NCBI GenBank assembly: GCA_945643635.1
Contig: CALZFC010000017.1
Coordinates: 219,001-283,000, forward strand
DNA length: 64,000 nt
Reading direction: 5' to 3'
Source of the DNA: Allodiplogaster sudhausi
Taxonomy: Eukaryota > Nematoda > Chromadorea > Rhabditida > Diplogasteridae
Within the stretch, counting starts at the first letter, position 1. Each line of letters starts with the position of its first letter. The notes under the pieces are model-generated. The model searched no databases. It worked only from the letters and a program-made list of their open reading frames with translations, and was not told where the DNA came from. A program made the translations under genes and the position numbers. This document shows, in pieces, positions 13,570-60,062 of the stretch.

Positions 13570-13956
13570 GTTACCTGATTTTCTCTATTAGTACCCCTCC
13601 TCCTTTATTAGAACCCCCCCCCCCCTCTAATAGTACCCCTCTCTGATAAAGCCATTGAAAAATAGAACCCCTCTCTCTAGTAGAACTCCTCCCTTTAATA
13701 GTGCCCCCCTAACAGCCTAATATCTAAGCTTGAGACGTACCTCGAATGGATCCTGGAGGCATATGATGCTCACTCCAATGAACTGATTTCAAATTCATTC
13801 AAAATATGTGGAAAAATGAAAATTCCAGTGATGATTCCTATGAATTCGAGCTACATATGATTCTTCTTTTTTTTTAGAAGAAAATGTTGTTATCAAACTT
13901 TTAGTGTCTCACATTGAAAAATAGTACCGCTCCCTCTAGTAGAACCCCTCCCTCTA
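13570..13956. mobile_element. MITE-like repeat truncated at the inverted-duplication junction
   Basis: It starts with a TTTTCTCTATTAGTACCCC-type end, has C-rich blocks of the AGAACCCCTCCC kind, and matches the complete copy at 29344-29763. The complete copy ends in an inverted repeat of the same TTTTCTCTATTAG sequence. This copy stops about 60 bases before that end, exactly where homology to the right arm of the large inverted duplication begins. Confidence 0.65.
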
Positions 13957-15061
13957 AACTTTAAAAGGAAAACAACAGACGCACGATTCAAACTAATATT
14001 TCGATATGACAGCACAAAATAGAGGGAAGGAATGTATGCTTAAATGCGAATAATGTTGTACATATGTACATATTTAGAGATGTGGGCATAGGGATCGAGA
14101 TCATACGAGTCGCACAAAGCCGTGAGCGCCTCGTGTATTATTGCGTCTTATCTTCTGGCTGATTGTAGTTAGCTTATCGTACTCCCGTGGTGAAAGTTTT
14201 TACGCGAATAGATGGATCTCGTCTGATCCCACGGTGAGTAGAGAAAGGAAAAAAAAACAAGGGACTTTGACCTCGGATTGATATTTGCAGAGATCACATT
14301 TTTCTAGCTTGCTAGTGGAAGTGCAAGCGGGTAGACGGAAGTGATAAATAGTACAAAGAGTACGAATTTCCAGGAAAAAAATACGGGGAAAAACGGTAAT
14401 CTCCATGGGAATCTTCATTGTTCTCCTGGTTGGCATTTCTTCGAATGCGAGCTCGCTTGTTTTTATGGTATTACGGAGAAGCTCTTAAGCGCTCGTGACT
14501 CGAGGGTATTTCATAATGACAATAAGCACATAAAAAAATGTGGACTTTGCTCCAAGGAGGATTAATTCATGTGTATATAAAAGAAGATCTGCTATTTGCC
14601 CTTCCACAAAGTACTCAAAAAACTGACTGTGCCGTTCAACGGTGTTCCTTTGACTCTTTAAACTTTACTTACTATCCGCGTTCTTTGAATCGGCAAGTTG
14701 CCAATTCTCCTTTGTCTATTGTCTATTATCACACTTCAACTTATGATACATACATGTGTACGTCAATGAAATGTCTGAATGGTTGTCTGTTGTACTCGTC
14801 TGCTATCAGTTATGTAACAATTAGTATGTAGCAAATAGTAGTTTTAACTATGAGTAAATGATGTCCAATGACTGCCACCAGGTTAAAAGGAGGCGCAAAG
14901 CTCAATCGTAATTTATTTGCAATTTTTCCGACCATTGTATACATATAGTCGCGTCCGGCTCTCTAAATCACATGCACTTTGACATTTTACCAAGCTAAAT
15001 GCCGCGAATTCAAATGTATGTTTTTTGCGGCTCCTACAAATAAGCACACGGAGGACCGATC

Positions 15062-18000
15062 ATGTCCGGATCCGGCATGGAGATCTCGGAAGACGCGCGA
15101 ACCGCCATCAGCGTCGTCGAATGGAGCTGTATCGGTACGGCAATTCTTCTTTAACAAGGAAAAGTTTGCCCGCAGAAACCAATATTTGTTCAACTCTCGA
15201 TAGATAATAATAATAATAGATACTTTTACAGTGATCTTTTTTAGGCTTTATCAATTTTCAGGGCCGGAAATTCGTGAATAATTTATTATAAGAACATAAT
15301 TTTAAATTGACCTACTTTAGGGGATAATTTGTCTTGCAGAGAATATGTTCTAACAATAAGTTCCTTGAGAACAACAACAAACGAACAACAAAACTGTCAT
15401 TATTAAAAGTTGCCATCTTTCTTCTCCAAGTCCTTGCGATCGTCGCCAACGGCACCGTGATCGTGCTCTCGCTCACGAGATCGAGCGCACAAATCGGCAA
15501 GTACAGATACTACATCATGGCCTTTGCGCTCCATAACATCTTCTTCACGATCATCTGCATCATTCTTCGGCCGGTTAGCATTATCCTGTCCATATACATA
15601 TAAATATATATATAACAACTTCCTAAAAGTAACACAGATGATTAAAAGAAATTGAATTTATAGTCCTAATAATTGTGTATAGGAATAAAATGTAAACATT
15701 AAACGGTTAAAAAAGTTGTAAGCATTTCAGGTGGCTGGCGCGTACAAGGGTGCCTACTTCATGTTCATGCCCGGACCCTTCAGTACTCCGTTTGTTTATT
15801 TTTCTCTAACTTGAAGACAAGCACTTGCAATGCTCGAGAGAGAATTTTTCAAATTTGCGCGGCCCTTCGCACTCTCATACGCGCAAGTGCTTTTTTGCGC
15901 AACTCCTTTCATAGCACGCGAGAATTAGAGTGCCACAGGGTGAACGCGGCAATTTGAACTTGCATTAATTTTTTTTCGGTGATAGTTCTCCTTTAACGCA
16001 CTTTTATACTTGACAATAGGAAGCAATGAGATCTTTTCCAGCTTGAGCACTGGCCTCTACGGAGGCACGCACTCGGTGACGATTCAGCTGCTCTGCTATT
16101 GCTTCCTCTACCGCTATATCATGCTGTGCAAGTTAGTGTTGTCTATTTCGTCATCATTCACGTTTTATGCATATTTCTCCTACATCCAGGCCTCAGAGAC
16201 ATGAACGATTCAAGGAGAACAGAGATAAAATTGCGTACAGATCAAAGATCTAATTGTTTTAAGATCAAAAGACAAGGACAACGAAAAAAATAAGTTTAAA
16301 GACAAAAGTTCAAACGACAAAGACAACGAAAAAATTATGTTTAAAGACCAAAGATCAAGATGTTTTTTGAACAAAAACCAAAGATCAAACTATTCAATGA
16401 TGACCATACCGGTCAACTTTCCATTCGTAGACCAAACCTGCGTAGCTACCTCGAACGTCGCACGACCTTTATGGTCTTCGCCATCTTCTACGTCGTCACG
16501 TGGTGCACCTCTTGCTTCTTCATCAATTTTGGCTTTCTGCCATCGGCGGAGGAGCATGACAACATGAAGAAATTCGTCATCGAACCATACTATCCGTGGT
16601 ACAACGAGACGAACTATGTGTACAACTCGGTCAGTTATCACTTCTCTCGTTAGAGAATTATCCTTTTATAAAAAGTGGAAAGAAACTCTGCTAATTTCTG
16701 AACAGCCGAACGTACATATTTTAAGGGATTGTTTGGTATCCTTAAAATTGAGAGGAAACCTTGAAGAAAATTAAATTAATAATAATTGTTCAACAAAATT
16801 AATTAAATAATTAATTACTAAATTAATTTGAGGCGACACGTTATGAGACGATCAGAAAGGTCGCATCGACGTGGTTGATGTCGCAGACGGGAACGCAACT
16901 CTTCGCCGTCTTCTTCTTCTCGCACTTTATCATCAAAGCGATACGACAGGTTTAAAGGAACCGAAAAATGAGAAGTAATAAAGCAGCCGAAACATGGAGT
17001 CAAAAAAGGCAAAATAAATAAATAAATAAGGAGTTGTAAAGGAGCCGAGGAAGGAAAGGAATTATAATCAAATCAAAAATAATACTTTTTTCTGGATTAA
17101 TTTTTGACGCTTTTTTCATTCACAAGGTGCGCGCTGATCATCACTCCGAGAAAATGGCTAACGTTCAGATGCAGCTCTTTCTCGCACTCGTCCTCCAGGT
17201 TGGCCATTCGGAGGAGAAATCAACTTTTTCAGTTTGAGAAAGTACAGAAAAAGTGAACTTTTCTATAAGCCATGTACACATATATTTGTCCCGGGTTTGA
17301 ATCCGGGAGCTGACAAACCTTTTGCCATGTTTCTACTTCGACATAAATACACAGATGGTGGCGCCCGTCGTGTGCATCTACGCGCCCGAGGCATTCGCCG
17401 TCCTCTTTCCTCCCCTCGGCATCACCGTCGACATTCCGCCCGGCGGCATCTCCGTCTTCTTTCACATCTTTCCATGCTTTGATGGCGGCGTCGTCCTCAT
17501 CGTCGTCAAGGACTACAGGTATGTATGTATGTATGTACGTACATATGACGCGATTTGCGAGAGAATCAAAAAGGCCGCGGACATAGCCAAAATAGAACCA
17601 GCTTGGATTTTGTTCAAAAGTTCGTTATAGGTACTTTCTGATACGAGAAATCGATTGGAACTGGTCTCTGAGTTGGAAAATGTCTTGTTCATTTGCTATG
17701 AGGGCTTGAATTATAGGCTCGCCGCGCTAGGAGGCGAGTTGGATGCACGTCTGCGGTCATTGAGACGCACTTTGTTGAGATATAGCAATGAAAATTTGCA
17801 ATATAATAGCCATGATATTACTCTAAACAACGAAAAAAGAAAAATCCGAAAATGTACAACGTTGATTGTTTTATATAATGAAAAGTTTGAGGGAGCTCAG
17901 ACAACGTGTTTCTCATTTTACCAGAATCAAACCTATACAGATGTATAGAGCATGAAAAGAGCTTTCGAATGGACTATTGGGTTGGGGAAACTTAGGATGC

Positions 18001-19329
18001 GCTGATGTTTCCTAGTCGATTATCACCTTGCGGCAGTACAAATCTGCTCGTCCGCGCCATAGAAGAACTCTTCAGAATCATTTTGGTATGTCAAAGCATA
18101 CACTGCAAGAAAGAGCGTTAAATTTTCTATAATTTGAACCACTTTCAATAAAATTCCGAATCTACGATGTTTTGTTAAAGATCAAAAGGTTATGACATCT
18201 GCATTTAATAATTCTTCAAGGATAGGTGCTTAAAAAATAATTGGAATATTCTAATTCGAATAAACTAAGAAAATGGATTATTGGGCGCAATGTAACTAGC
18301 ACTACCGGCCCTACTTTTAAAGCTTATAACAAAATATTGTGAAGTTGAAAATTCTTTGGAATGGGTTCAGCTTATAGTAAATTTCGCGCTCTTTCTTTTG
18401 GTGTCTGTATGGACATGCGAAAATGAGTATGAAGTACTGTTTTCTACTAGCGCGCCGGGATAATCGATTAGGAAACTTCAGCGCATCCTAAGTTTCCCAA
18501 ACCCAATAGTCCATTCGAAAGCTCTTTTCATGCTCTATACATCTGTGTACGTTTGGTTCTGGTAAAATGAGAAACACTTTGTCTGCGCTCCTTCAAACTT
18601 AAAAGACTATAAAAGATGGAAAATCGAACATTTTCAAGTTTTTCTTTTTCCTTGGTTTAGAGCAATGTCTTGGCTATTATATTGCTAATTTTCATTTCAA
18701 TATCTCAACAAAGTGCGTAGCAATGACCTCAGACGTGCATCCAACTCGCCCCCCTGCGAGGCGAGCCCCATATTTCAAGCCTTCATAGCTAACGAAAACG
18801 ACATTTTCCGATCCTTATACCACTTCCAATAGATTCCTCGTATCAGAAAGTACCTATAAGGAACTTTAGAACAAAATCTAAGCTGGTCGATTTTGGCTAT
18901 GTCCGCGGCCTCTTTGATTCATTTTGATTCTCTCGCAAATCGCGTCATATGTATTTATACATAAATACTTATGTAGGTACATGCACATAATGAAGATTGT
19001 CTCGAGAGGTCAATTCAATTCGTCCTAAATTTGATTTTTTTCAAGTCTCGAGAGGCTTTGAAAGTCATTGTCTTGAGGATGCTATAGTATCGAGTGGTCA
19101 TTCAATATATCCTTGTTGTACCACAAATGTGTTTGAAGTTGCTGTCTTGTTCAATATACTTTTTAATTGCAAAGTATTAAAGCGAAAAAGTAAGAGATTT
19201 TCTCTCTCAAATGCCTCCTCACTAATCCCTGTTTGTTGCAGAAACGCCATTCTTGGAATATCCAAGAAGTATCTGGTGGGCCCGCAAGAAGTGACAATGG
19301 CCACGTCAACGGTAATTGACCAAGCATAA
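15062..19329 (+). CDS. Str-type serpentine chemoreceptor, left copy (intact)
   Basis: Ten exons: 15062-15134, 15410-15573, 15731-15782, 16020-16131, 16190-16234, 16431-16629, 16833-16949, 17127-17198, 17355-17518 and 19242-19329. They total 1086 bases, 361 residues, with matching phase at every join. A first membrane segment with AIVANG (about 34-39) leads into QIGKYRYYIMAF, as in Str receptors. CYCFLYRYIMLC (about 122-133) gives the third-segment YRY motif. An NET glycosylation site lies in the loop before segment five. The last segments end VVKDYRNAIL, the usual Str C-terminal signature. Str receptors act in sensory cilia as chemoreceptors. The exon-2 acceptor (TTAAAAG) is weak; the stronger TTGCAG at about 15340 does not fit the exon-1 phase. 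The last intron holds a 1.4-kb foldback element. Class Str is likely; Srd is the alternative. Confidence 0.85.
17540..18953. mobile_element. 1.4-kb foldback element in the receptor's last intron (left copy)
   Basis: The ends are inverted: TACATATGACGCGATTTGCG at the left and its reverse complement at the right. Complementarity continues inward (AGGCCGCGGACATAGCC, TGGACTATTGGGTT and others) to a centre near 18,245, so the whole element could fold into one imperfect hairpin. It has no transposase frame. A related terminus (GACGCGATATGCGAGAGAAT) occurs at about 26,551. It must be spliced out with the intron of the receptor gene. Confidence 0.8.
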
Positions 19330-19787
19330 ACGCAATCGACAGCAACATTTTTTTTTTACCTTACCCGAATTTTATGAATATTTGACGGCACTCTAAATTT
19401 TACACATTCCCACTCTCCTTTGCTCTGCCTGGTCAAGTGAACAGATTCAATCTTGAATTTAGAACGGCTCCTTTAAGGTAATTAGCATAGCTTGAGCAAC
19501 TATCGTTTGATTTAAAAAAAAAAAAACCTTTTTTTTGTAGAAGTAATGATGATTTTAACGCATATGTCGTTTCAGTCAACAAAATGTTTCATTATTCGTT
19601 TTGAACTAATTGTAAGGTAGTGTTACGCATGATATAAAGAACCCCATTTTTTGAATGTTCTTCCTTTTTTCAATAGCTAGAATGTTCCTTCCTTTTCTTT
19701 GATTGAATTTTTTTTGGAATCGTTCAGTAATAGTTTTAAGTAATTTTCGAATCACCTGTTAGAATTGTAGAATGTATTCTAATTATT

Positions 19788-20030
19788 TTGGATAAAGTTG
19801 CTGATGACAAAATTGAAGGTGCGTACGTAATTTACAAAATCATCCCCTTGTTGCGCATCAAAATATCATCACTTCGAGAGGATAACAAAATGTCCTTTTT
19901 TCCTAACCCTGCCACCCCCTCCTGCTCCTTCTCCTCTCTTCTATTCTTCTCTCTTCCCCGTCCTGTCTCTTGTAAAGTGAAGTCCAACCTCGATATCCGG
20001 ACCGACGACGAGGCTGTCAATGGAGCTTAA
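19788..20030. other. Pyrimidine-rich non-genic block with spacer paralogue
   Basis: Open frames exist on both strands here, but they cover low-complexity CTCCTTCTCC-type sequence and have no splice support. The part around 19,785 (TTTTGGATAAAGTTGCTGATGA) recurs at about 23,718, marking the start of an older duplication. I do not call a gene. Confidence 0.35.
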
Positions 20031-20801
20031 AATCCACCGTACTTTGCTGTTTGCGTTTAACTCATTGAATGCTCTTTTCTTAAGAATTACGGTTGATTAA
20101 TAATGTCCCTTGACAGCCTCTTTGAGTATTTGGCAGGACTGTCCAGATTACTGACAATGAGCCTCCAACTTTGCAGCACGCAAACGGTGTTTCGTCGATC
20201 TTCACACAAACATACAATAAGTGACGGATAATAGAAGATAACTTTTGGATGACTTCGCATGTTATTGCAAAAAAAAAAAGGATTTGCAATAATGCCAAAA
20301 TCCTCGTCTGTACCTTTGTTTACTAGATTGTGGGAGAACCTATGTACATACATACATACATAGAATCTGAGGCGGAAAAGGGGGGAGAATAAGTTTTCTT
20401 GAAGGATGACGAGGACATAAATAAATTTAGGAGCCTTTCATCAAAACAACATTTAATACTTCTTCTATGCCATAATCTTATGTGTGCCTGCGCAAAACTA
20501 ATGTAAAAAAAGAAAAAAAAAGAAAAAAAAATAAATAAAAAAACAAGTCTTAGAGATCTGATAAAAGCACATGACGACATGGAGCTTCGCCATTATTCCC
20601 TTCGGGTCAGGCTAAAGTCGAATCCTATATTATCTAGTATCTATTATCACTCGCAGACATAGACAAAACAGCCATCACACTAAATATCTACCGTAGAGCA
20701 AGGCCGATATTATGGTTTCAAGTGTGATCTATCGATATCTACAACGTTCATCTGTCCACTATTCGTCTTTTCTATTCGTCATTTTCAGCTGCCAACACTA
20801 A

Positions 20802-21401
20802 TCACTTCTTCTGCTCTCCTCGATGCCTGGCAGCGGCTCCTCGACAGAGATGGGGATGTAGGATGCAAAATGTCGAAAGCGATGCAGAAAGCTGACGACC
20901 GCTATGATGCTTCTGGTGGAGAAAGAGCTGCTTTGACGACAACGTCGTTGCTTCCGGCGTCGATGAAATGCCTTAAAGGAGAAAAAAAAACGTCAATTTT
21001 GAATTCGTGCCAATTTTCCTTACACAATTGTGATTTCATTGTTAGTGAGACAAGAAAACGACAAAGTCAGAAATAAAAAAAGTTCAACAGACTACGTTTT
21101 AATTTCGTGCATCTTTAAATGTAGTATAAACATCGTGGTTTCCGGCACGAATTTCAATGTTTTCATGCACATGCCTTCCCATTGCACGATTTTTTTTAAG
21201 TGATTTTAATTTTACCAGACATCCACATTGTTGACGAAAAGTAAAACGAAATTTTAAAATATTCTAACCAGCATTTCGCTCGTTTCTTCTGTCGCCAGTC
21301 CCCGCTGTCTCCGCGGGCTCTTCTACTGCTGATGAGGCGAAGAGGCCAAGAATGCAGGTGGTGGCCATTAGAATGGCAAACAATGTCGCATTGCTGTGCA
21401 T
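20802..21401 (-). CDS. Small secreted cysteine peptide precursor, gene A
   Basis: Two exons on the minus strand: 21269-21401 (start MHSNATLFAILMATTC, a clear signal peptide, followed by an acidic stretch) and 20802-20971. The intron of 297 bases has a GTTAG donor and a TTTAAG acceptor, phase 1, giving 100 residues. Exon 2 contains SGRQLSASLSTFCILHPHLC and ends in a basic tail with QKK. The same two-exon structure, intron phase, frame and core motif occur in gene B (spacer) and gene C (33.7-34.5 kb), which is the main evidence that it is real. The core is two cysteines separated by six residues, suggesting a small disulfide ring. I do not recognise the family. The ring size recalls allatostatin-C/somatostatin-type peptides, but nothing else supports that. 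A processed secreted signal is inferred. Confidence 0.7.
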
Positions 21402-21910
21402 TGTAGAGGCTGCTTTGTCGGGTGGGCTTAACATTTGCCAAGATCTTTAATAAATGAGTGTGCAAAACGAGAGGCGTAGTAAACGCAACACATAGATTTC
21501 TCACAATCATCCGGTCTTTGCCTGTGGGTTTAAGCTGTTCTCTGTACCTCTCCGCTTACCTTGCGTGATAGAAAAAATAAATAGGCCAAATTTCTAGACT
21601 GATGTTCTATTACGAACGAAAAGTGATGAGGGGGAAGCATTGTTGACAATATGGAAAAAGGGGAAGGGAATCACTGTTGCCGTTTTGTTGTTTTTTTGCT
21701 GCAAAATATGTTGCTCTATCTCTTAACCGGTAGACATAACAGCTTTTTCCTAATTTCCCTTGTTTCCCAAGTCACGTATTCTACGTATTAATGTAGACAT
21801 ATGTAACTCTACAACAAGGTGCATAGAGCCGCAAAATACTGGTCCTCCTACGCACGAATCCCGATGATTACATGCCATTCAATTTCCGCCGGCTGAACAA
21901 GAAATCGGGA

Positions 21911-22454
21911 GAGTGCCACCAAAGCAGACTGCGAATGTAAATAATAGTGAAATAAATTAGATTATTATGATTCGAAATTGTTTAGGTTTTAGATACTGTA
22001 CCTAAATACCTTGGCAATATTAACGAACCCACCTTTCCATATCGGCAACAACGTATTATGCGAAAACTTGCAACATATGAAAAATAGAAAACCAAATAGA
22101 AAAATCATTCAGCAATACTCTTCAGCAATGTCGACCTCCTGCTTTCACCGGCAATATTTATACCATCCGAGGCAAATCAGGAGAGTGCCACCAAAGCAGA
22201 CAGCGAATGTAAATAATAGTGAAATAAATTAGATTATTATGATTCGAAATTGTTTAGGTTTTAGATATTGTACCTAAATACCTTGGCAATATTAACGAAC
22301 CCACCTTTGCATATCGGCAACAACGTATTATGCGAAAACTTGCAACATATGAAAAATAGAAAACCAAATAGAAAAATCATTCAGCAATACTCTTCAGCAA
22401 TGTCGACCTCCTGCTTTCACCGGCAATATTTATACCATCCGAGGCAAATTGTTG
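21911..22454. repeat. 272-bp tandem repeat, two copies (left arm)
   Basis: The segment starting GAGTGCCACCAAAGCAGAC repeats with a 272-base period (21,911 and 22,183). The units are almost identical; one has CACCTTTCCATATC where the next has CACCTTTGCATATC. The right arm has the same unit at 42.55-43.2 kb with an extra partial copy. A diverged single unit lies near 29,930-30,040. Frames inside the unit are not supported as genes. Confidence 0.85.
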
Positions 22455-22999
22455 CCAAATTGTAAGCTCCTTTCATCTTCGAACTTTATCCTTAATCGTT
22501 ATACATATTTTGAAGTAAAGATAAGCCCATTTTTCGAAAGTCAATTCAGATAGCTTACTTTAATCGAGAAAAACAACGCCGCGACGTTTTTTGAGACATG
22601 AACAAATCTCTAGTTTTCATTCTTTTACACTTTATTTGTAATCCTACTATTTGGCAAGAATACGAAAATCTACAACTCTAATTTTTGTTCTATGTTTTGC
22701 TTTCTGGCTGTCGCATAGGCGCCGATGAATACAATGTGGGCGGCTTTCATCAGAGAATCTTAACTTTAATGCCTGAACTTCGAAAAATGGGATGATCGTA
22801 TTCAAACTGAGAGTGTTTACCCGAAAATCATTCTCGAATTCATTGAATGCGAAAAAAATTAATGCGAGATCTCTCCAATTCTGATCTGACATTCACATTC
22901 GCAATTCAGACACGTATGTGTAGACATGGTTTTACATAGAAATCTCCAAAATATATCCATATACTACATATGCATACAAATGTATGTATATACATACAT

Positions 23000-23323
23000 C
23001 TAGTTTTTTTTTCGAATATTTTGCTGATATTTTGTAAAGTTTTTGAGCTCATTCGATATGCAGAAAATTACAGTGAACACAAAAAGTCAATGAATTCTGA
23101 AAACAAAGCATTTAGAGGGCTTAATACAGTACCTCTCAGCGGCCAGGGGTCTATGCTATTGCGGCGAAAGCGGCCGCGTGCCAAAGAGGCCGGGCGAACT
23201 TAAGCCCTCAAAATGCTTTGTTTTCAGAATTCATTGACTTTTTGTGTCCACTGTAATTTTCTGCATATCGAATGAGCTCAAAAACTTTACAAAATTTCAG
23301 CAAAATATTCGAAAAAAAACTAG
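23000..23323. mobile_element. 324-bp foldback element (left arm)
   Basis: Starting CTAGTTTTTTTTTCGAATAT and ending with its reverse complement, the element folds through matched blocks (AGAATTCATTGACTTTTTGTG and TTTAGAGGGCTTAA) around a GC-rich centre containing GCGGCCGC near 23,172. It has no coding frame. The right-arm copy is at about 41,684-42,007. Confidence 0.8.
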
Positions 23324-23485
23324 AAAATCTTGTAAAATTGTCGGTGCACGAACGCCTCACTTCGTAGTGTGTGAATGTTCCATCGTTTCAGTGAATGTCT
23401 GCATATGTCTATAGTCTATGGACGCTCATATTTTATGTATGTGCAAGCTCTAAATGTTTGGCTCTTTTTCGAAGTCGAAGAGCAT

Positions 23486-23791
23486 TTAATTTTTTTTTTT
23501 ACTTTTCAGCAGGAGATCTTCATTTAGCCCACTCGTGCATGCCACGTATTGCACAAGAAAATGATCGCCGATGATACGACTGACCACATCGAACATCCTC
23601 TTTTCAGCCCAAAGTACGTCGACCACAAGAACTTGGAGAAAATCTTCATCAAATCTGGTAGCAGCTTTAAATTTTCGATGAACCTGCTTGTATTGTATTA
23701 AGTATTCTAATAATAATTTTGGATAAAGTTGCTGATGATGAAATTGGAGGTACATACATAAAAATTTGTCAAATAAAATGGGAATATTCAT
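23486..23791 (-). CDS. Possible truncated exon at the inner edge of the left arm
   Basis: The minus-strand frame contains VHRKFKAATRFDEDFLQVLV and RIIGDHFLVQYVACTSG. The same sequence is on the plus strand at 41318-41509 in the right arm. The pattern (FKAATRFDE.., VVDVL, SRIIGDHFLVQYV) faintly recalls a chromatin-reader MBT repeat, but this is not secure. Here the duplication ends just upstream of this exon's acceptor, so any upstream exons are missing and the copy is probably a fragment. Confidence 0.3.
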   Translation of the reverse strand: MNIPILFDKFLCMYLQFHHQQLYPKLLLEYLIQYKQVHRKFKAATRFDEDFLQVLVVDVLWAEKRMFDVVSRIIGDHFLVQYVACTSGLNEDLLLKSKKKN

Positions 23792-24533
23792 AACTAAATG
23801 TCCCTACTCCTTCCTCTTTGAAGAAGAAAGAAGATACATATTAACTACTTTTTTATGACTTTGCATGTTATTCAAAAAAAAGTTTTATGCACTAGTGACA
23901 AAATCGTCCTGTGCTCATTTGTTTTCTTTTCTTGACTGTAATCGTCCAAGATGCTCTCGAGGAAGAACACGTGTAGGAGCTTTTTTTAAAAATCAAAACA
24001 ACACTATTTACTTCTTCTATGTTATTGGTGTAGTTTCCTGAACCAATGGACGCTGTAAATTATGAAGAGAAAAGATAACTTTAAAAAAACAAGAAACACT
24101 TCTTAGATACATACATATCTGACAGAAGCACCAGACGACATGGAGCTTCGCCAATATTTCCATCGAGTCAGGCTATAGTCGAAGCTTCTAGAGTCTAGTA
24201 TTTATTATCACTTGCACCAATATCACTGGAGAAAAAGACAAAAACACCCGCCACCATAAAGCAGGGAAGATATTATGGTTCTGGGATGACATACAAGAAA
24301 TTTATCCACAACGTTCACTGTGATTATTTTTAACAAACTTCTAGCATGATTTATAGATATGTATCTACAACGTTCAACTGTGACTATTATGTATTTAGCA
24401 GAGGTACTACTTTTCTATTAGAACGGTTTTGCATGTTTCATTGCAGCAGTCACAACCGTGTCTTGCAACGGCGTCAGAAACACGGCGAATATCGGGTGAG
24501 CGTAATGTTATGACAAATAATGGTGCGCCTTTG

Positions 24534-27500
24534 TTACTTCTGCCCTCCTCGATGCCTGGCTTTGGCTGCTCGACAGAGATGGGGATGTAGGATGCAAAAT
24601 GTCGAGAGCGATACAGAAAGCTGACGGCTGCTGTGCTTCAAGTGACGGTGTGACCCTCTTTCCGGCTGCGAAATCCCTTAAGAGAGCCTGTCAGTATCGT
24701 TCGATCAAGGCTTGCCCTAGAAATTTTTTTTTCGAATTTCTTGACCAAAATTGATTATAGTATACAACTCGACGTGGTGAACAAAATAGGCTACATTTCA
24801 AAGTTGAAAAAAAATTTTCCGCGTGAGACAAAGTACAGTAATCTTTTAAATTTCATTGGTCATAAGTCGCATCAAACTTATTATTAAACAACCATCGAGC
24901 TATCATTGGATAGCTGATTGGACGGGCTTTAATTTTCATGTTGATGATGTTTTCATAAAATTTGAATTTGGCCCTAAAAGACGGCCCTAAACATTTTCGG
25001 TGGTTGTTTTTGGCAAAATTTTGCATTTTTCGTTCATTTCCACAAAACCGTTCCTACATATTCTTAAAGTGCTTGAAATTTGCTACAATATATGTCTCTT
25101 TCAAAAAAATTAAGCGTCCCGGACTATGGTTCCCAAACGCTTGAACATGATCCTGTGTAAACTGTAACACCGTGCAAGCGCATTCTTCGACCCATAACTG
25201 CGCTCAATGTCAATATTACAGAATCGTAAGAATATCATCTAAGAGCTCTCATGGAGATCTTCAAATGTTACATACATACTTTTATTGAAAAGTTTGGATT
25301 TATATGGGAAATTTCGTTCTGTATAATAAGATGGCTTAAAAAACTACTTCAGAAACATTTCCACATGCCCAATCATACATCATAAGAAAGAGGATGAAAT
25401 TTGGTACAAGATAAAGCCCTTTCAATGGAATTAAATGCAAACGATCTTTTGTTATAAATCATACAAATAGTGCCAGTAGCGTCTCTGTCATTTCGCCCAA
25501 GAATTCACATTTTAGGTTATTCGAATTAGTATATTCCAATCCTTTTTTTTCTACAGGTTTTCCATAAGGCCTTGCTATCCTACTCTTATGGCTTATAACA
25601 AAAGATCGTATGCCTGGAATTCCATTGAAAGGGGTTCATCTTGCACCAAATTTCATCCTCTTTCTTATGATGTATGTTTCGACAGGCGAAAATGTTTTTA
25701 AAGTAGTTTTTGAAGCCTTCTAATTGTACATAACGAAATTCCCCATATAAATTGAAACTTTTCAATAAAATAATGTAAGTAACATTTGAAGATCTCCGTG
25801 AGAGCTCTTAGATGATATACTTATGATTTTGTAAGATTGACATTGAGCGCAGTTATGGATCGAAGAATGCGCTTGCACGGTGTTACAGTTTACACAGCAT
25901 CATGTTCAAGCGTTTGGGAACTATAGTCCGGGACGTCTAATTTTTTTGAAAGAGACATATATTGTAGCAAATTTCAAGCGCTTTAAGAATATGTAGGACC
26001 GGTTTTGTGGAAATGAACGGAAAATGCAAAATTTTGCCAAAAACCACCACCGAAAATGTTTAAGGCCGTCTTTTAGGGCCAAATTCAAATTTTATGAAAA
26101 CATCATCAACATGAAAATTAAAGCCCGTCCAATCAGCTATCCAATGATAGCTCGATGGTTGTCAAATCATAAGTTTGAAGCGACTTATGACCAATGTAAT
26201 TTAAAAGATTACTGTACTGGGTCTCACGCGGAAAATTTTTTTCAACTTTGAAATGTAGCCTATTTTGTTCATCACGTCGAGTTGTATACTGTAATTAATT
26301 TTGGTGAAGAAATTCGAAAAAAAATTTCTAGGGCAGGTCATAATAGGGCCCTGCTCGAGTCTTACTGACACCCTCTCTTAAACGAGCCAAAAACACAATT
26401 TTGAATTCGCGCCTTTTGCCCGAGAGGACGGTGAGAGAGCAAACACCACTATAAATGTCAGCAAAATTCGAATAGGTTGATTACGGTAAGTTTCGTGCAC
26501 CCTTAAAAGTGAAGTAAATATCATAGATTTTTCCCCTATTTTCTTACACATATGACGCGATATGCGAGAGAATGGCCGGGGACCTGGCGAAATTTGGTAT
26601 CTCTCAAAATCTCTTTATAGTTGCATTCTAACACAGCGAAACGATTGGAATGGGCCCGGGAGTCTGAAAACGCCATCCTGGCCAGCTTTGCAAGGCTAAA
26701 AATACGAGAGCTCGGTGGGAGTTCCAGAGATGGCCGAACATTCGCGTTCGCAGCTTCGCGCGAAAAAACCAATATTTGTGAAATTTATGCCATAAATAGA
26801 AATTTTTGTCGTAAATATTGCTTTAGAAAGCTGTTCAAAGTAGAATTTGAAGATATTCACTATTATAGTGTCAGCGGTCAGTGACTTTGGAGCATCGTGG
26901 AAAGAGTTTGGGCGGGAATCCCAATGCCCCAGGTTCGATGCACGGGCGAGTACACGCGTTTTGCCCACAAATGAAAACCCTTGTTTTGCATTTAGATTCC
27001 ATTTAAACCATTAAATATGGCCCAAAATGAATTCACTAGGCTGTCCTTTGGCGGAATGTCGAATGAGTTACAATTTCGACTGGACAGCGCCCATACAAGA
27101 AGGATTTTAAACCTCGCACATCTCGCCAAAATGGAGTTTTCAGACTCCCTGATACATTGTAACATAAATGTAAAGATCTTTTGAGCGAAATCAAATTTTG
27201 CCGGGTCCTCGAATCTTTAGTTCCCTTACGGTCCCACATAAATTGCGTCTTATGCACATATTTTCCAATTAGTATGTTCATTTATACGACCACAATTTTA
27301 GTTTATGTTTGACTTAAGAGGGCCTCTCTGTAAGAGTCGAGCATGCGCTTAAGGCAGCCTGCTCCGAGAAAATTGTTTTCGAATTCGTTAACATAAAACA
27401 TTTTTCGACACGCTCTATTTAATGAGCCTAATTTCATCATCATCCGATTTTTTCCCTTCGGGATACACTACCGTAACCCTGAAAATTCATTGAGCCATAA

Positions 27501-28853
27501 TTTCATCCAAAATCTGTTTTGTGAAACCTTGTACATATCATTCAATAGCATTTCGAAAGCGCTTCAAATTTCATCTAGGAACATGTTTTGTTAAGATTTC
27601 ATTTTCATCAAGAAAATTGGCTTTAAATAATATGAAGGGAAATCACACCACTTTATGGCCATTTCGACACTCTGGGACCTAGTTAGAAAGAAAGAGCGTG
27701 AAATTTGCTACAAAGTAAACAATTTCAAAAAAAATTAAAGTTACTGTCATTTCGTCCAAGAATTCATAGTTTAGTTTATTCGAATTAGAATATTCCAATC
27801 CTTTTTTCTACAGTTTTTCCATAAGGCCTTGTTATCCTATTCTTATGGCTTATAACAAATGATCGTATGCATGGAATTCCATTGAAGGGGGTTCATCTTG
27901 TACCAAATTTCATCCTCTTTCTTATGATGTATGTTTGGGCATGTAGAAAAGTTTCTGTAGTTTTTTAAGCGTTCTTATTTTACAAAACGAAATTTCCCAT
28001 ATAAATCCAACCTTTTCAATAAAAGTATGTACGTAACATTTGAAGAGCTCCATGAGAGCTCTTAGATGATATACTTACGATTTCGTAATATTAAGATTGA
28101 GCGTAGTTATGGACCAATGAATGCGCATGCACTGTGCCTCGGCGACCGAAAATGCGCCATTTTGACCGACTCCCGCGCATTTTTCGCGTGATATCGAAGA
28201 CATCGTACGCTTTAATTTTTTTTGAAAGGTGTTTATTTTGTAGCAAATTTCACGCTCTTTCTTTCTAACTAGGTCCCAGAGTGTCGAAATGGCCATAAAG
28301 TGGTGTGATTACCCTTCATATTATTTAAAGCCAATTTTCTTGATGAAAATGAAATCTTAACAAAACATGTTCCTAGATGAAATTTGAAGCGCTTTCGAAA
28401 TGCTATTGAATGATATGTACATGGTTTCACAAAACAGGTTTTGGATGAAGTTATGGCTCAATGAATTTTCAGGGTTACGGTAGTGTATCCCGAAGAGAAA
28501 AAATCGGACGATGATGAAATTAGGCTCATTAAATAGAGCGTGTCGAGTTGTATAAGAAAAATGTTTTTTGTTAACGAATTCGAAAACAATTTTCCCGGGG
28601 CAGGCCGCGCTCGCAGCTTACTGACATGCTCTCTTAAATATATGTAGTCATGCCGTTATTTTACGAGCTCACTCCTAAAGCACACGAATACATTATTTCA
28701 AAATAAAAAAGAAGGATGTAAATAAGTAAGCTAACCGGCAAATCGATCATGTTTTCTGTCGACAGTCGCCGCTGGCTCTTTGACTGATGAGGCGACGATG
28801 CCAATAATGTTGGCGGCCATTAGAATGACAATCAACGTCGCATTCCATTGCAT
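24534..28853 (-). CDS. Small secreted cysteine peptide precursor, gene B (intron invaded by foldback elements)
   Basis: Exon 1 is 28736-28853 (MQWNATLIVILMAANIIGIV, a signal peptide) and exon 2 is 24534-24676. The intron is 4059 bases with a GTTAG donor and a CTTAAG acceptor, phase 1, giving 86 residues. Exon 2 contains SRQLSVSLSTFCILHPHLCR and ends near the same point as gene A. The frame is open through both exons despite clear nucleotide divergence from gene A, and changes fall mostly outside the core, which suggests selection on the protein. The intron holds two TTAA-flanked foldback elements (24678-26381 and 27313-28637). The first abuts the acceptor, so the pyrimidine tract seen in gene A is displaced. 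The frame looks intact, but efficient splicing is doubtful. Confidence 0.6.
24678..26381. mobile_element. 1.7-kb foldback element with TTAA target duplication, in the gene B intron
   Basis: Flanked by TTAA on both sides. The left terminus GAGAGCCTGTCAGTA is mirrored at the right by TACTGACACCCTCTC. Long inverted blocks (for example TGCCCTAGAAATTTTT with its complement, and AACTCGACGTGGTGAAC) pair around a centre near 25,525. There is no transposase frame. The TTAA target duplication is the hallmark of piggyBac-type transposition, so this is probably a piggyBac-mobilised non-autonomous element (family assignment is inference). Confidence 0.75.
27313..28637. mobile_element. 1.3-kb TTAA-flanked foldback element, second copy type
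   Basis: Flanked by TTAA at 27313-27316 and 28634-28637. Inverted termini include GTCAGTAAG-like ends, GCAGGCC and AACGAATTCGAAAACAATTTTC, and the arms pair around a centre near 27,980. It shares its end sequence with 24678-26381 and much of its interior with 60063-60760. No coding frame. It lies inside the intron of gene B. Confidence 0.75.
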
Positions 28854-29343
28854 AGTAAAAGTAGATTGTCCTGATTCTCCTTAAAATCGTCAAGAAAAGA
28901 ACATTCAAAACGAGAGACGCGTGCAGTAGTTTACGGTACATTTCAGCAACAATTTCCAAAGATATTTCTCACAATCAGATAGCCTTTGTCAGTGAATTCG
29001 ATCAGTTTTTTTTATATTTTGATCAAGCTCATCTATATAACATGCATGATATATTGGCAGCGGGCCCTTATTGACGACAACAAATTAGTAGTTCAAGTTT
29101 CGGGGAGGCTTTTTTGTGATTTGGAAAAGTGGGGGGGGGAAGCATTGTTGCCGATTTGTTTTTTTTTACTACCGAATATGTTGCTCTGTCTCTTATCTGC
29201 TAGACATAGTTTCCCTTGTATATCCCAAGTCACGTATTCTGTTTACGCACACGCCTGCAACTCCACAACGAGTGACGTAGAGCGCCACACACCCTTTTTC
29301 TGGTTTTGCTATGTAACTTGCGAGTAATAGTTCGGTGCTGTTG

Positions 29344-29763
29344 AATACCGTATTTTCTCTATTAGTTCGCTTCCCTCAAATAGACCCCCCCCCCCGCCTC
29401 TAATAGTATCCCCTCCCCTTGAAAGGGCCATTGAAAAATACATAGTGCAATAACTTCATTGGGAAGAGCAATACCTCGGCTGACGATGCACCTCGAATGA
29501 ATCCTGAAGACATGGGATGCTCTTCCCAATGAAATTATTGCTAATTCATTCAAAATCTTTCGTAAAACGGATATTCCAGTGATGATTCCGTTGAGGCCGA
29601 GCTATAAATCTCTTTTTAAGAAGTTGTTCGCAAACTTTTGGTCTATCACATTGAAAAATAGTACCCCTTATCTCTAATAGAACCCCAACTCTAATAGAGC
29701 CCCATCTCGCAATGGCATTTAATAAAGTACCCCCGGGGATACTAATGGAGAAAATACTGTATT
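29344..29763. mobile_element. 420-bp MITE-like element, complete copy
   Basis: Ends are inverted: AATACCGTATTTTCTCTATT at the left and an imperfect reverse complement (ACTAATGGAGAAAATACTGT) at the right. The interior has C-rich blocks (GACCCCCCCCCCCGCC, AGTACCCC) and matches the truncated copy at 13570-13956. No coding frame. Confidence 0.7.
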
Positions 29764-30950
29764 TGGCAGCGACATACATATCAGGGTGGATGCTTTCCCT
29801 TTTCCAAATCGGCATAATATCTTGCGGCCGACCGGCAATAAGGGAACGCAGCCTGATTGATGCCAATTTTTAAACAGCGCCGGAGTATTATTCACTAATT
29901 AGCATAACCAGAAAATAGAAGGAAAAAATAAACAGAAAAAGCATTCAACAACAACACTCTTCAGCAATGGCAACCTCGTGAGCGTGAGCCTGGAATATTT
30001 ATACCATCCAAGAAAAGAAGGCACATTGTTGCCAAAATGGTGAGCTCCTTTCATCTTCGAACTTTATCTTTAATCCTTATACATATTTTGAAAGTAAAGA
30101 ACTGCCCATTCTGCAAAATGTAAACGACCGAAGGTCTTTCAATTCTGCCAGTGTTTTTTTTAATCCAGACAAAAACAACGCGACGTTTTATTTTTGAGGC
30201 ACGTAGAAAAAAAATCTCTCTCGTTTTCATTTGATATTATCTTTAATCCTTATTTTTTTTGAAAGAACATCAAACCATGTCGAAAATTTATAAGTCGTAT
30301 TCCTTGCTTGTTGAATATTTTGCTTTCTGGCTGTCGTAGAGGCTTCAATGAATACAATGTGAGCGTCTTTCATCGACGAATCTTAACTTTAACGCTTGAG
30401 CTTCGAAACATGGGATGATTGTGTTCAAAATGAGCGTGTTTACCCGAAATCATTCTTGAATTCAATGAATGGGAAAAAAAATTAATGCGCGATGTCTCCT
30501 ACATATTTTGATCTGACATACACATTCGTAAATGTAAATTTGTATAGACATGTTTTTTTACATACATACATACAAATTTCCACCATAAACTATGTATATA
30601 GTCTATGGACGTATATATGCATGCATACAAATTTCCACCATAGACTACATACACATTCGTAAATGTAAATTTGTATAGACATGTTTTTACATACATACAT
30701 ACAAATTTCCAACATAGACTATGTATATAGTCTATGGACGTATGTATGCATGTACATATTTTATGTGTGCAGGCTCTAAATGTCTTTATCTTTTTCCAAG
30801 TCTAACAGCATGGTTTTTTCTTTCTTGCAGTAGATTTCGACTTAATTCGTTTGTCACTTATGTTAATGCACTCGTACCCGCGTCGACTCCTCAGGAACAA
30901 GCATAACGAGCTGGCCCACAGAACTCATCGACCATTCTCGCTCAAGTCAC

Positions 30951-32489
30951 CGTTTTCTTAGATAAAGTAAACTTGGAAAAAAATGTTATTCGACTGTGGT
31001 CGGACAAGTCCAGTGAAATGGATAAGAGACGGCAAAGAAGAAGAAAATAAAGTAGAGAATCATCGTCACATCTTTTTTTATCTCGAAGAAACGCTTGTGT
31101 CATTATTTGTGTTAATCCGAAAATAAAAATCGCGAGGATGGCTTTTTGCGACATATTTTTTCGTCACAGATGTCTGTGAATGCGAATACGCATAGGAGTA
31201 ATCCGTAAAACTTTGACCCTTGCCTATATTGCAGCCTTTGCTCCCTTTCATCTCGATAACGAATGCATGAGCGTGAAATCAGGCTGATTATTCAAGAAGC
31301 AATAAAGTCGAATGTGTAGGCGTTAGAGGAGAGAGAGAAGAGAGAGAGGAAAGATTTCAGTGAGTTGTTGTTTTTTTTTAAATTATGATGACTAACTGTA
31401 TTGTAGGTGCAAGGAATTCCTTAACATTCCAGAAAGATGCCACATTCTATCATAGCTTTTTTGAACTTACCAGAGCATTACTGAACGCCGTCTTCTGCCT
31501 CCGGGTTTGGGAACGTTCCAGAATACTCGCAATCAGGAAGATGCCGGCAGTTTTCCAGAACATCCTGGAAGGAACGAAATTATACCTATTAGCTTTCCAG
31601 AGTCCAGTCATTACCTCAGAATGGATTCTTGCTACTTGTAAATTAATATATGTATGTACATACATACATAAATGTATCTTCTCGCACGAGCAACCCTATA
31701 ATTATGGCTCTATGTCGGGAAAAAAAAATGATGAGCTATTATAAATGAACCAGTGTCATTAGAAGGACTAGATTGTGAAGCTTCAGAGCAACTAGCCAGC
31801 TTATAGATAAATACTCACGAGGGCGACAAATGTTTCATCTTTCTCTAGCACATATGGAAACGATTTATTGAATACATACATAAGTAAAACAGCAGTAATT
31901 GTTTATCCTAGACGATGCTGACAACATATGTAAATAGTATGGAGAACATGTATTCAGTTCATAATTCTCCTATCACTAACAATAAGTAGATGTAGGACCA
32001 TACATAAATATGTAAACAGGATGCAATCTGTATGTTTGTTTATTCCCCGTCTAACTGTCATTGTCTTTGTTTATTCGCGCAGAAGAATGTCGTGGCATTC
32101 GTGAGCGCTTGCCTTTTAACTTGTTCATCGTATTTTGCACGTTGTTGAAAAAAATTTTATGTTCAAATATTTCTGCACAATAGTTGACAGCAATCCAAAG
32201 ACCATGTTTTCCGAAGATGTGTTGTATATTATCGCTGGTCTTTCCTCGGGTATGCCTGAACGAGGAGGCGGAGTTGTGAACCCGTGTTGTTGCTGTAGCT
32301 TGTCAAGAGATAAATATATGTATAAGAAAAGTTTTTATCAATTACTTTATAGTCATACAACAGATATAACGTTAACTAGAGAGAGAGAGATAGTGGTGAA
32401 ACAGAGAGAAACAGAGTAAAACTTGTTTGTGTTGAGATTCAGTTGATTGTGTAGAGAGAGTTTGTTGGGCATGCCGTTTGAATATCGGA
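30951..32489. other. Spacer stretch without a supportable gene
   Basis: AT-rich sequence with GAGAG patches near 31,330, 32,380 and 32,450 and TACATACA tetranucleotide runs near 31,650. An open frame at 31385-31744 has no homologue or splice support that I can see. Nothing else was recognised. Confidence 0.4.
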
Positions 32490-32572
32490 CAGGCGCTCTA
32501 GCTGAATGAGTGGTGGCTCTCCTCCGTCAGAGGAGGGGAGACCCCGACTCTTACTTGGGGGCTTGGCTTATT
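32490..32572 (+). repeat. tRNA-like segment (possible tRNA-derived SINE)
   Basis: The sequence has an A-box-like TAGCTGAATGAGTGG, a five-pair anticodon-like stem CTCCT/AGGAG around loop CCGTCAG, and a B-box-like CCCCGACTCTTAC. The acceptor stem does not close, the loop lacks the invariant T before the anticodon, and the T-arm is imperfect. It is not a working tRNA. A degenerate tRNA or SINE head is the best reading. Confidence 0.3.
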
Positions 32573-32601
32573 GTTAGAGAGAGAGAGAGGGAATACCATA
32601 A

Positions 32602-32826
32602 TACATATATGACGGTGCCAACTAAAAAAACGATCGTTTTTGCATTTTCAACTCGTTGCGCACACTTTTTTGGAATATTCCGCACGAATATGCCAAATTT
32701 GCCAAAAAGTACGCGTACTTTTTGACAAATTTGGCATATTCTTGTGGAATATTCCAAAAAAGTGTGCGCAACGAGTAGAAAAATGCAAAAACGACCGTTT
32801 TTTTAGTTGGCACCGTCATATATGTA
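32602..32826. mobile_element. 225-bp near-perfect palindromic MITE
   Basis: The whole segment is an inverted repeat centred on GTACGCGTAC at about 32,714. Its ends are ACATATATGACGGTGCCAAC and the reverse complement. Only a few mismatches are visible over about 110 bases per arm (for example GGAATATTCCGCACGAATAT against its partner). There is no coding frame. The high identity of the arms suggests recent activity or hairpin-based correction. Confidence 0.85.
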
Positions 32827-33077
32827 TGGGACGTAAAGTCTTCCCTCAAAGTCAGTTGAATTAACTCCATGCAAAGAGGATTTTTGACGAGTTCTTCGAA
32901 CTACATTTGCATAAGACCTCAAACAATGTGCATACTGAAATATATACCGGTAAAGTCACACATATTGCTACGGTCTTATAGTGTTCATACATATGTTTAA
33001 ACTATTACAAGTCACAAGAGAACAACAGAAACAATTTAGTACAACAAAAGCAAGTACAACAAGAAGGACTAAAATTT

Positions 33078-33600
33078 TTGGAATCTATTGACAGATTATT
33101 TACTTCGATCCAAGACAACCATCGCTTTCGGCTAACCAGAAGAAAGCAACACGCAATAGCTTTTTTTCAGGAAAACAAAACTCATGGTCAACCGAATTTG
33201 AATTTTCCTGACTACTGTAGTCTCAAAACACATGCTCTCTCTCGCCCTTATGTCAGGAAAAAAAGTGCGAATGAGTTTTCGGGAAACTCTAAAGGAGAAC
33301 GATTTGGTAATAGAATACTGTACATGACGCATGTTTTGCCTTAAATTTAGACATGCTTATCCTGATTTCTCGCATTAAAGAGCTTAAAACTTTCTCGTCA
33401 ACAAGCTGGATTACACAAGGATTCCTGATAAGCTCTCGACTAATTCCCAGCACTGAACATGAACATATAATAGACTGTTGTTTGTTGTCAGTGACCGGCG
33501 AGATTGTACAATATGTGAAGCGGCATTTCTTCAACCAAAATAATTCGCATTCGTGATTTCGCGACAAAATTGACTCCACCTCGCTAATTATATTCTCTTT
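33078..33600. other. Diverged repeat shared with 37.3 and 38.1 kb
   Basis: Segments such as GATCCAAGACAACCATCGC and TCTCTCGCCCTTATGTCAGG recur in diverged form at about 38,110 and 37,290. Open frames here (for example 33078-33344) are not supported as genes. It is probably an old dispersed repeat. Confidence 0.35.
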
Positions 33601-33670
33601 CTGAATGCTCTAAAGCGAAGAGATGTGAAAAGTTTGGTGTGAAGAAAGAGAAGAAATTGTTGGGCTCCTC

Positions 33671-34486
33671 TCATTTTTTGCCGAAGCAAAGGTACCGTCC
33701 GTCCCTGCAGCAGACGCTGCGATGAAGAATGCAAAAGATGGACTGCCATACTGGCAGCTTTTTTGCGTCTTTTGCCCGGTCATGTTGCGCCGCATGCATC
33801 AGGTAAACATCTGCAAAAAATTTGATTAGTAAAAGAGCAGATTACGGTTGTATTGAGCAAGTCCCCCTATGTCAAGTCATTCCTTTTCGGCGTCGAAAAC
33901 GCACTCTTCCTTTCATACGTGTTTAAAGAGGATGTCCATCGACCGTATACCGTATTTTTTTGTCTGCGTCACTCGTCTTTCACATTCTTTTATTGAGGAC
34001 TACTGTAGCATTTAGGGTCTCCGGATAACCTCTTTAAGGAGGGCGATCACCCGAAAAATTGGACATAAGGTTTATAATTGCCGCGGCGCTTCGCACTTCA
34101 CGCAGCGCGACTTGTAAAACTGCACGCAAGCATGAGAGAGTGCCTAACTCCCCGGACAATTCGAACCTGCATTCATTCTCTTTCCCGGTGGTCGTCCTCG
34201 TTTAAGGCATGCACAGATGTTATATTTTCTCATGCGACACCTGAGATGGAGTTCAAAAAATATGTATTTCAAAGGAAATATTGAAAAAAAAATTCAAGAA
34301 TGACGAAATTCAAGCAATACGAAATCCAAAATTGATCAACTCAAACAATGAAGAAATCTAACCGAGCGCCTGTGGTAGCTTTCCAGCTGCAGTAGGCAGT
34401 ATCTTTTGCCTCGGAAATTCTAGGCTGCTGCGAGCAGCAGAGACAAGCAGAAGTACAATGACAAGAGCGGTCTGTCTTATCTGCAT
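33671..34486 (-). CDS. Small secreted cysteine peptide precursor, gene C
   Basis: Exon 1 is 34363-34486 (MQIRQTALVIVLLLVSAARS, a strong signal peptide). Exon 2 is 33671-33810 after a TTTTTTGCAG acceptor. The intron is 552 bases, phase 1, with the same GTTAG donor as genes A and B; the product is 87 residues. Exon 2 carries KLPVWQSIFCILHRSVCCRD and ends LCFGKK. The S-x-F-C-I-L-H core and the second Cys six residues after the first match genes A and B, while the rest has diverged strongly, so the conserved ring is likely the functional part. The final GKK could be an amidation signal if the peptide is processed, which is inference. It has two extra cysteines compared with A and B. No known family was recognised. 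Confidence 0.65.
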
Positions 34487-41284: not shown

Positions 41285-41317
41285 ATTATTAGAATACTTA
41301 ATACAATACAAGCAGGT

Positions 41318-41509
41318 TCATCGAAAATTTAAAGCTGCTACCAGATTTGATGAACATTTTCTCCAAGTTCTTGTGGTCGACGTACTTCGGGCTGGAAAGA
41401 GGATGTTCGATGTGGTCAGTCGTATCATCGGCGATCATTTTCTTGTGCAATACGTGGCATGCACGAGTGGGCTAAATGAAGACCGAAAATCTCCTGCTGA
41501 AAAGTAAAA
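41318..41509 (+). CDS. Possible exon at the inner edge of the right arm
   Basis: After an ACAAGCAG acceptor the frame reads VHRKFKAATRFDEHFLQVLV and continues with a SRIIGDHFLVQYVACTSG segment to a stop after SPAEK. The left-arm copy differs at two or three residues and in its last residues because of a 6-base difference. Possible upstream exons lie only on this side (about 40.7-41.25 kb), so this may be the original locus. Family uncertain; a distant MBT-repeat resemblance is weak. Confidence 0.3.
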
Positions 41510-42555
41510 AAAAAAAATTAAATGCTCTTCGACTTCGAAAAAGAGCCAAACATTTAGAGCTTGCACATACATAAAATATGAGCGTCCATAGACTATAGAC
41601 ATATGCAGACATTCACTGAAACGATGGAACATTCACATACTACGAAGTGAGGCGTTCGTGCACCGACAATTTTACAAGATTTTCTAGTTTTTTTTCGAAT
41701 ATTTTGCTGATATTTTGTAAAGTTTTTGAGCTCATTCGATATGCAGAAAATTACAGTGGACACAAAAAGTCCATGAATTCTGAAAACAAAGCATTTAGAG
41801 GGCTTAAGTTCGCCCGGCCTCTTTGGCACGCGGCCGCTTTCGCCGCAATAGCATAGACCCCTGGCCGCTGAGAGGTACTGTATTAAGCCCTCTAAATGCT
41901 TTGTTTTCAGAATTCATTGACTTTTTGTGTTCACTGTAATTTTCTGCATATCGAATGAGCTCAAAAACTTTACAAAATATCAGCAAAATATTCGAAAAAA
42001 AAACTAGATGTATGTATATACATACATTTGTATGCATATGTAGTATATGGATTTATTTTGGAGATTTCTATGTAAAACCATGTCTACACATACGTGTCTG
42101 AATTGCGAATGTGAATGTCAGATCAGAATTGGAGAGATCTCGCATTAATTTTTTTCGCATTCAATGAATTCGAGAATGATTTTCGGGTAAACACTCTCAG
42201 TTTGAATACGATCATCCCATTTTTCGAAGTTCAGGCATTAAAGTTAAGATTCTCTGATGAAAGCCGCCCACATTGTATTCATCGGCGCCTATGCGACAGC
42301 CAGAAAGCAAAACATAGAACAAAAATTAGAGTTGTAGATTTTCGTATTCTTGCCAAATAGTAGGATTACAAATAAAGTGTAAAAGAATGAAAACTAGAGA
42401 TTTGTTCATGTCTCAAAAAACGTCGCGGCGTTGTTTTTCTCGATTAAAGTAAGCTATCTGAATTGACTTTCGAAAAATGGGCTTATCTTTACTTCAAAAT
42501 ATGTATAACGATTAAGGATAAAGTTCGAAGATGAAAGGAGCTTACAATTTGGCAA

Positions 42556-60060: not shown

Positions 60061-60062
60061 AA

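Follow-up and report, generated by a model that had tools for sequence, protein, structure and literature searches.

In a 64,000-nucleotide stretch of the assembled genome of the nematode Allodiplogaster sudhausi (C17:219001-283000, hereafter the window; contig labels such as C1 and C17 are internal to the assembly), we found three small two-exon genes, A, B and C, that are, as judged by sequence comparison, members of a real multigene family of small secreted precursors. By searching the whole assembly (351.8 Mb, 382 contigs), this family, here referred to as the FCILH genes, was found to comprise 21 loci distributed over eight contigs (C1, C6, C17, C18, C27, C46, C253 and C325), 17 of them intact and four broken. 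The short cysteine-containing core of the predicted peptides is, by the substitution counts given below, under purifying selection, and on balance we favor the interpretation that the FCILH genes make up a lineage-expanded family of secreted, cyclic, neuropeptide-like ligands.

All three window genes are situated on the minus strand. Their exons, the intron of gene B and a further, broken copy have the following positions within the window.

20802..20971, minus strand: gene A exon 2, with the core RQLSASLSTFCILHPHLC, stop included.
21269..21401, minus strand: gene A exon 1, with a signal-peptide-like N-terminus and the phase-1 donor G/GTTAG; 87% identity with exon 1 of A'' on contig C1.
24534..24676, minus strand: gene B exon 2, with the core RQLSVSLSTFCILHPHLC, stop included.
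24677..28735, minus strand: gene B intron, holding palindromic repeat elements (24713-26335 and 27354-28608).
28736..28853, minus strand: gene B exon 1, with the phase-1 donor G/GTTAG.
33671..33810, minus strand: gene C exon 2, with KKLPVWQSIFCILHRSVCCRDGRYLCFGKK at the exon end and four cysteines (C-x6-CC-x6-C), stop included.
34363..34486, minus strand: gene C exon 1, with the phase-1 donor G/GTTAG; 85% identity with exon 1 of C' on contig C1.
43368..43537, plus strand: exon-2-only copy of gene A, core CILHPNLC, broken; located in the second arm of an inverted duplication.

Each of A, B and C has a hydrophobic N-terminus in exon 1 and a single copy of the core in exon 2, the spliced proteins being 100, 86 and 87 amino acids long and the phase-1 introns 297, 4,059 and 552 bases, respectively. 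A preliminary description, made from the letters of the window alone, had given the same places, two-exon structure, phase-1 intron and signal-peptide-like exon, and its S-[TI]-F-C-I-L-H motif with a second Cys six residues further on is present in all three genes. Other parts of it needed amending. The three loci that it counted are real, but the fourth copy was overlooked; the conserved part was limited to this motif and the Cys, whereas conservation between A and B extends further, over RQLSxSLSTFCILHPHLCR and then ARHRGxQK; and the spacing of the proposed C-x6-C ring holds for all three genes, but gene C carries two further cysteines (C-x6-C-C-x6-C). The arms of the inverted duplication (13953-23714 and 41285-50372) are about 99% identical and about 18 kb apart, pairing 13953-21132 with 43207-50372 (99.2%) and 21902-23714 with 41285-43106 (98.8%). 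Since 21133-21901, the part holding exon 1 of A, is not represented in the second arm, the exon-2-only copy was classified as broken.

Family loci were collected by protein searches with four queries, namely B, the member on C18, C, and a type IV member. The last of these was also run last and gave 18 matches, i.e. 15 known loci and three weak ones (E above 1), but no new members. With exon 2 of B as query against the whole genome, gene A was matched at E = 1.5e-12. Weak rows were dropped prior to the locus count, namely C15:4703216 (internal stop), C1:5419937 (two internal stops), C40:3231376, C15:3670570 and C5:2355295. The 21 loci were assigned to the following types.

Type I: A, its exon-2 copy and B on C17; A', A'' and B' on C1.
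Type II: two on C325 and one on C46.
Type III: one on C18.
Type IV: two each on C27, C325 and C46.
Type C: C on C17, C' on C1, two on C253 and one on C6.

Gene models were computed for 14 of the 17 intact precursors, while the remaining three, from C253 and C6, were read by eye. All intact loci (17/17) consist of a signal-peptide-like exon and a peptide exon separated by a phase-1 intron, and all have a hydrophobic 10-residue stretch starting at residue 4-9 with a Kyte-Doolittle mean of 2.3 to 3.6, the measure by which the exon is called signal-peptide-like. Among the broken loci, the exon-2 copy of A and A' are without exon 1 (judged, in the case of A', from a tblastn search of 40 kb), exon 1 of B', read by eye, has a frame break and lacks the donor at the expected place, and in the type IV locus C27:2822853 the frame of exon 1 departs from that of its sisters. 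The GTTAG donor, described in the preliminary account as common to the three window genes, is indeed found in these, but in only four of the 14 computed intact models (A, B, C and C'); donors vary, and GTTAG was rejected as a mark of the family.

The consensus core is [TI]-F-C-I-L-H-[RP]-x-[LIV]-C, with [TI]FCILH in 20 of the 21 loci and TFCLLH in A', and the C-x6-C spacing occurs in every one of the 21 loci accepted from the similarity searches. When the genome was scanned with a DNA pattern encoding F-C-I-L-H-x-x-[hydrophobic]-C, 27 matches were obtained, versus one for the reversed pattern. Twenty of these are known loci (A', with its FCLLH, cannot match), and the other seven look unrelated (C13:934721, C16:1066637, C46:540758, C55:391899, C251:1197182, C253:2485330 and C322:748826); they are probably due to chance, as none of them came up in the four protein searches. 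A block on C1 (2576001-2616000) matches the neighborhood in the window piecewise, at about 69-92% identity in the best-scoring 60 stretches, and carries A', A'', B' and C', so that both the kinds of family genes and their order correspond to those in the window. From the sequence likeness, this suggests the presence of two diverged haplotypes or subgenomes in the assembly. Four of the five intact type IV genes have an acceptor-like TTTCAG, CATAG or CGTAG at most 12 bases before the start codon, which could be a trans-splice site or the end of an upstream intron.

The link of the C-type genes to the others is, on profile scores, the weakest in the family, yet beyond chance. A profile built from seven type I-IV exons, with no C-type sequence in it, scored five C-type exons at 25.1-30.2 bits. 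Gene C itself obtained 25.1 bits (E = 1.3e-5), compared with 11.7 bits (E = 0.2) for the best of 20,000 C-type shuffles. When 7,707 open frames (20 residues or longer, taken from 18 stretches) were scored, the top ranks went to the 18 family exons that they included; the two C-type exons among these had 24.7 (gene C) and 26.6 bits, against 11.5 for the highest-scoring frame outside the family. By their sequences, the members on C253 and C6 bridge the types, as they have Q[LF]PLSQSIFCILHRSVC where type IV has QTAQSMSTFCILHRSLC and type II QLSQSLSTFCILHRHLC. The order of the types is not settled by the gene tree, which has long branches.

That a shared core implies selection had been proposed from the window alone, and both within-type and between-type substitution counts support it. 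In ten pairs, which share sequences and hence are not independent, the 18-codon core showed 21 synonymous and five nonsynonymous changes on about 131 and about 409 sites, respectively, with no nonsynonymous change in six of the ten. The ratio of nonsynonymous to synonymous substitution rates (dN/dS) was 0.12-0.69 for the whole genes of these pairs. The comparison of A with B, singled out for dN/dS in the preliminary description, could be made, but with one synonymous and one nonsynonymous change in the 18-codon core this pair is uninformative alone. Between types, 13 pairs compared over 11 codons had a proportion of synonymous differences (pS) of 0.47 or more, beyond correction in seven of them, and a proportion of nonsynonymous differences (pN) of 0.04-0.28; the fourteenth pair in this comparison is a within-type one, with one synonymous change. 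Identity in eight pairs, gaps counted, amounted to 85-94% in exon 1, 81-94% in exon 2 and 23-81% in the introns. In the minus frame, 6, 4 and 10 of the 11 columns at codon positions 1, 2 and 3, respectively, vary among the 21 cores. An open frame on the opposite strand over exon 2 of A (20684-21076, plus strand) was rejected as a real gene, as the cores vary in the manner expected of the minus frame.

These data bear on the possibility that the loci are non-functional, i.e. conserved remnants of a duplicated segment or repeat. Such an origin would agree with the four broken loci out of 21 and with the inverted duplication and palindromic repeats in the window, but given the frame-specific constraint, the kept splice sites, the exons that are more identical than the introns, and the five diverged types on eight contigs, we regard it as highly improbable.

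The region around the core provided candidate processing signals in the 17 intact genes. At position -10 from the first Cys there is Arg in 14 genes, Lys in C and C', and Cys in one of the C253 genes, while position -9 is occupied by Gln in 14 genes, by Lys in C and C', and by Pro in type III. Arg(-10) and Gln(-9) occur together in 13 genes, a pattern that suggests cleavage after the Arg and an N-terminal pyroglutamate. Arthropod allatostatin-C (AST-C) begins with a pyroglutamate. As to dibasic sites, C and C' have KK ahead of the core, type III has RR directly after the second Cys, and in type II an RR follows the core by a few residues. Types I-IV have two core cysteines (one type II gene has a third, downstream) and type C has four. 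The C-type proteins end in CFGKK (C and C'), CFGKTEE (two genes) or CFGEKEE (one gene), GRR ends type III, far from the core, and no Gly-basic C-terminus is found in types I, II and IV.

In the mechanism that we propose, the precursor would enter the secretory pathway and be cut after the basic residue ten positions before the first Cys, whereupon the new N-terminal Gln would cyclize to pyroglutamate, the two cysteines would close a six-residue ring, and basic residues past the second Cys would be trimmed. This would release a peptide of about 17-18 residues to serve as an extracellular ligand, its most likely target being a G protein-coupled receptor, with a mode of action analogous to that of AST-C/somatostatin-type ring peptides, and the C-type genes would yield a longer, four-cysteine form. 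Under this proposal the core stays frozen while the pro-region and tail drift because a secreted ligand keeps one ring. A frozen core with changing flanks would thus fit one receptor-binding ring carried on many differently regulated precursors.

Alternatively, the secreted products could act in defense or as effectors, whether as antimicrobials or on another organism, in place of serving as hormones, a reading that we consider unlikely though still to be reckoned with. The copies are grouped, with four each on C17 and C1 (related blocks), four on C325, three on C46 and two each on C27 and C253; the four broken copies indicate turnover; the tails of types I-III are basic (net charge +4 to +5); and the four-cysteine form could be a hairpin antimicrobial peptide. 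On the other hand, type IV tails carry a charge of +1 to +3 and type C tails one of -1 to +4, and the frozen part is the core and not the remainder, whereas immune peptides usually diversify in their mature part. Five nematode antimicrobial groups, namely cecropin, CS-alpha-beta, nemapore, diapausin and GRSP, are named in PMC10506718. Like the FCILH precursors they are small, secreted and multigene, but three of them are defined by cysteines forming at least three disulfides in a group-specific order, which the FCILH family does not have, and the other two are without a cysteine motif.

Closer parallels are offered by ring peptides. PMC8764417 lists 16 nematode AST-C-like nlp genes (nlp-55, -62, -64, -66, -67, -71, -79 and -88 to -96), with the motifs RNCFF(S/T)P(V/A)QC and (K/R)NC(F/Y)F for nlp-88 to -96. 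These, too, are small secreted precursors with many genes in nematodes, and the RNCFF(S/T)P(V/A)QC members have C-x6-C; their motifs differ from [TI]FCILH[RP]x[LIV]C, and neither of the two is present in the FCILH family. Caenorhabditis elegans NLP-99 (T05A8.3) is, according to PMC13082328, the AST-C/somatostatin orthologue, GDGYGWNDCEFSPLSCLL, with a C9-C16 bridge, and the ligand of the Gi/o-coupled NPR-16. It has in common with our family the C-x6-C ring and the placement of the signal sequence in exon 1 and the peptide in exon 2, but its ring is CEFSPLSC. The FCILH profile gave no score for NLP-99, for Drosophila AST-C or for the nlp-88 motif, although Cys-keeping shuffles of these did score in 666, 1,062 and 694 cases, respectively, out of 2,000 each. 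Arthropod AST-C and CCHamide likewise have six residues between two cysteines; the former was without a score, as stated, and CCHamide-1 obtained -0.9 bits, a value reached by 429 of 2,000 of its shuffles.

AST-C-like motifs are numerous in the same genome. The DNA pattern N-C-[FY]-F-[ST]-P-x-x-C gave 28 matches versus two for the reversed control, with e.g. NCFFSPLGC, NCFFSPLAC, NCYFSPIQC and NCFFSPVQC, though at least one of the 28 looks like chance (C250, ring NCFFCPYVC). One canonical gene was read, C80:687212-687238, with RRSSVSGLVRNCFFSPVQCMIPNPQFHHSKRYN. It has sites of both kinds, RR and KR, and the acceptor that seems to precede its peptide exon gives, by eye, phase 2 and not phase 1. 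The strict pattern for NLP-99, D-C-E-F-S-P-x-S-C, had no match in this genome. The FCILH genes might be a far-diverged AST-C-like (somatostatin-type) branch that kept C-x6-C but no longer has the N-C-[FY]-F-[ST]-P signature. In favor of this, AST-C-like motifs abound in the genome, the ring size and the placement of the peptide late in the precursor match, the exon division is that of NLP-99, and Pro occupies ring position 4 in A and B as in the published RNCFFSPVQC. Since ring position 4 is Arg in types II, III, IV and C, the profile scores none of the AST-C-type sequences (some shuffles notwithstanding), and the canonical gene differs in cleavage sites and intron phase, we find such descent quite improbable. 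By analogy, FCILH peptides may work like an AST-C-type ring peptide, while membership in the AST-C-like family is not supported by motif, and the nematode precedents, NLP-99 and the AST-C-like NLPs, count in favor of the ligand interpretation. More specifically, and only tentatively, the genes could constitute a separate cyclic hormone family unrelated to AST-C, expanded in one nematode lineage to five precursor types, with a ring that is typically pQ-x7-F-C-I-L-H-x2-L-C and presumably with its own receptors.

The description of the family as unnamed holds as far as tested, i.e. in Pfam, in a nematode-rich protein database and among motif strings in papers. No Pfam model matched the 14 computed precursors except for two chance-level rows (E 0.14 and 0.2), and no family relative was found with Pfam among eight proteins from the window. 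Two family alignments searched against a database of annotated proteins gave nothing at E<=10 among 5,677 and 4,868 candidates. A search of the same database for major sperm protein gave 280 matches, and of the 120 listed many bore nematode names; because the database holds many nematodes the null result is meaningful for close relatives; at that database size the C-type distance (about 25 bits) is borderline, and unannotated small genes cannot appear. A profile search of PDB gave two matches (E 0.73 and 1.2), both pilins aligned at their N-terminal part and no relatives, Rfam gave none in the window, and the core motif strings retrieved no relevant paper, the sole match being an 1801 text, apparently a scanning accident. 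PMC9881375 names nlp-99 and 19 further Steinernema genes, one of which could be a relative.

Several observations weigh against a neuropeptide-like role. Seventeen intact copies, several of them clustered, are unusual for a neuropeptide, and types I and IV have a single Arg, not a dibasic site, before the core. The GKK end, taken in the preliminary description as a possible amidation signal of gene C, is present in C and C' but absent in the three other C-type genes; with two out of five it was rejected as a conserved signal, and the family as a whole is not characterized by amidation. For the ten pairs, dN/dS in the part of the gene beyond the core is 0.13-1.25, the highest value coming from one type IV pair. 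The AlphaFold model of exon 2 of A is of low confidence (mean predicted local distance difference test score, pLDDT, 60.7; mean 82 for block 31-40) and has short helices around the core; it was not interpreted. Finally, homologues in related species, by which the preliminary description would have had the family judged, were not found outside this genome in searches that covered annotated proteins only.

The surroundings of the genes in the window are rich in repeats. The intron of gene B contains two palindromes, 24713-25463 with 25587-26335 (92.5%) and 27354-27740 with 28210-28608 (94%), that are related to a copy at 60062-60764. What looks like an old palindromic element of about 1.5 kb, with 76% identity to its own reverse complement, is found at 17513-18976 (mirror 45364-46827). 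The first arm of the inverted duplication also holds a Str-class chemoreceptor gene (15328-17630, plus strand), two exons of which match the nematode family Str (PF10326 in Pfam, E = 8e-8 and 5e-9), in agreement with the nematode origin of the DNA, and its frames are mirrored in the second arm (46710-49012, minus strand).

Catalogued nematode peptide signaling derives mainly from C. elegans and parasites, and a family of 21 loci found nowhere else in the searches made suggests that descriptions of the cyclic-peptide repertoire are incomplete. Through its frozen core the family offers a defined peptide for synthesis and receptor tests, and with canonical AST-C-like motifs alongside in the same genome, convergence versus divergence would be directly testable.

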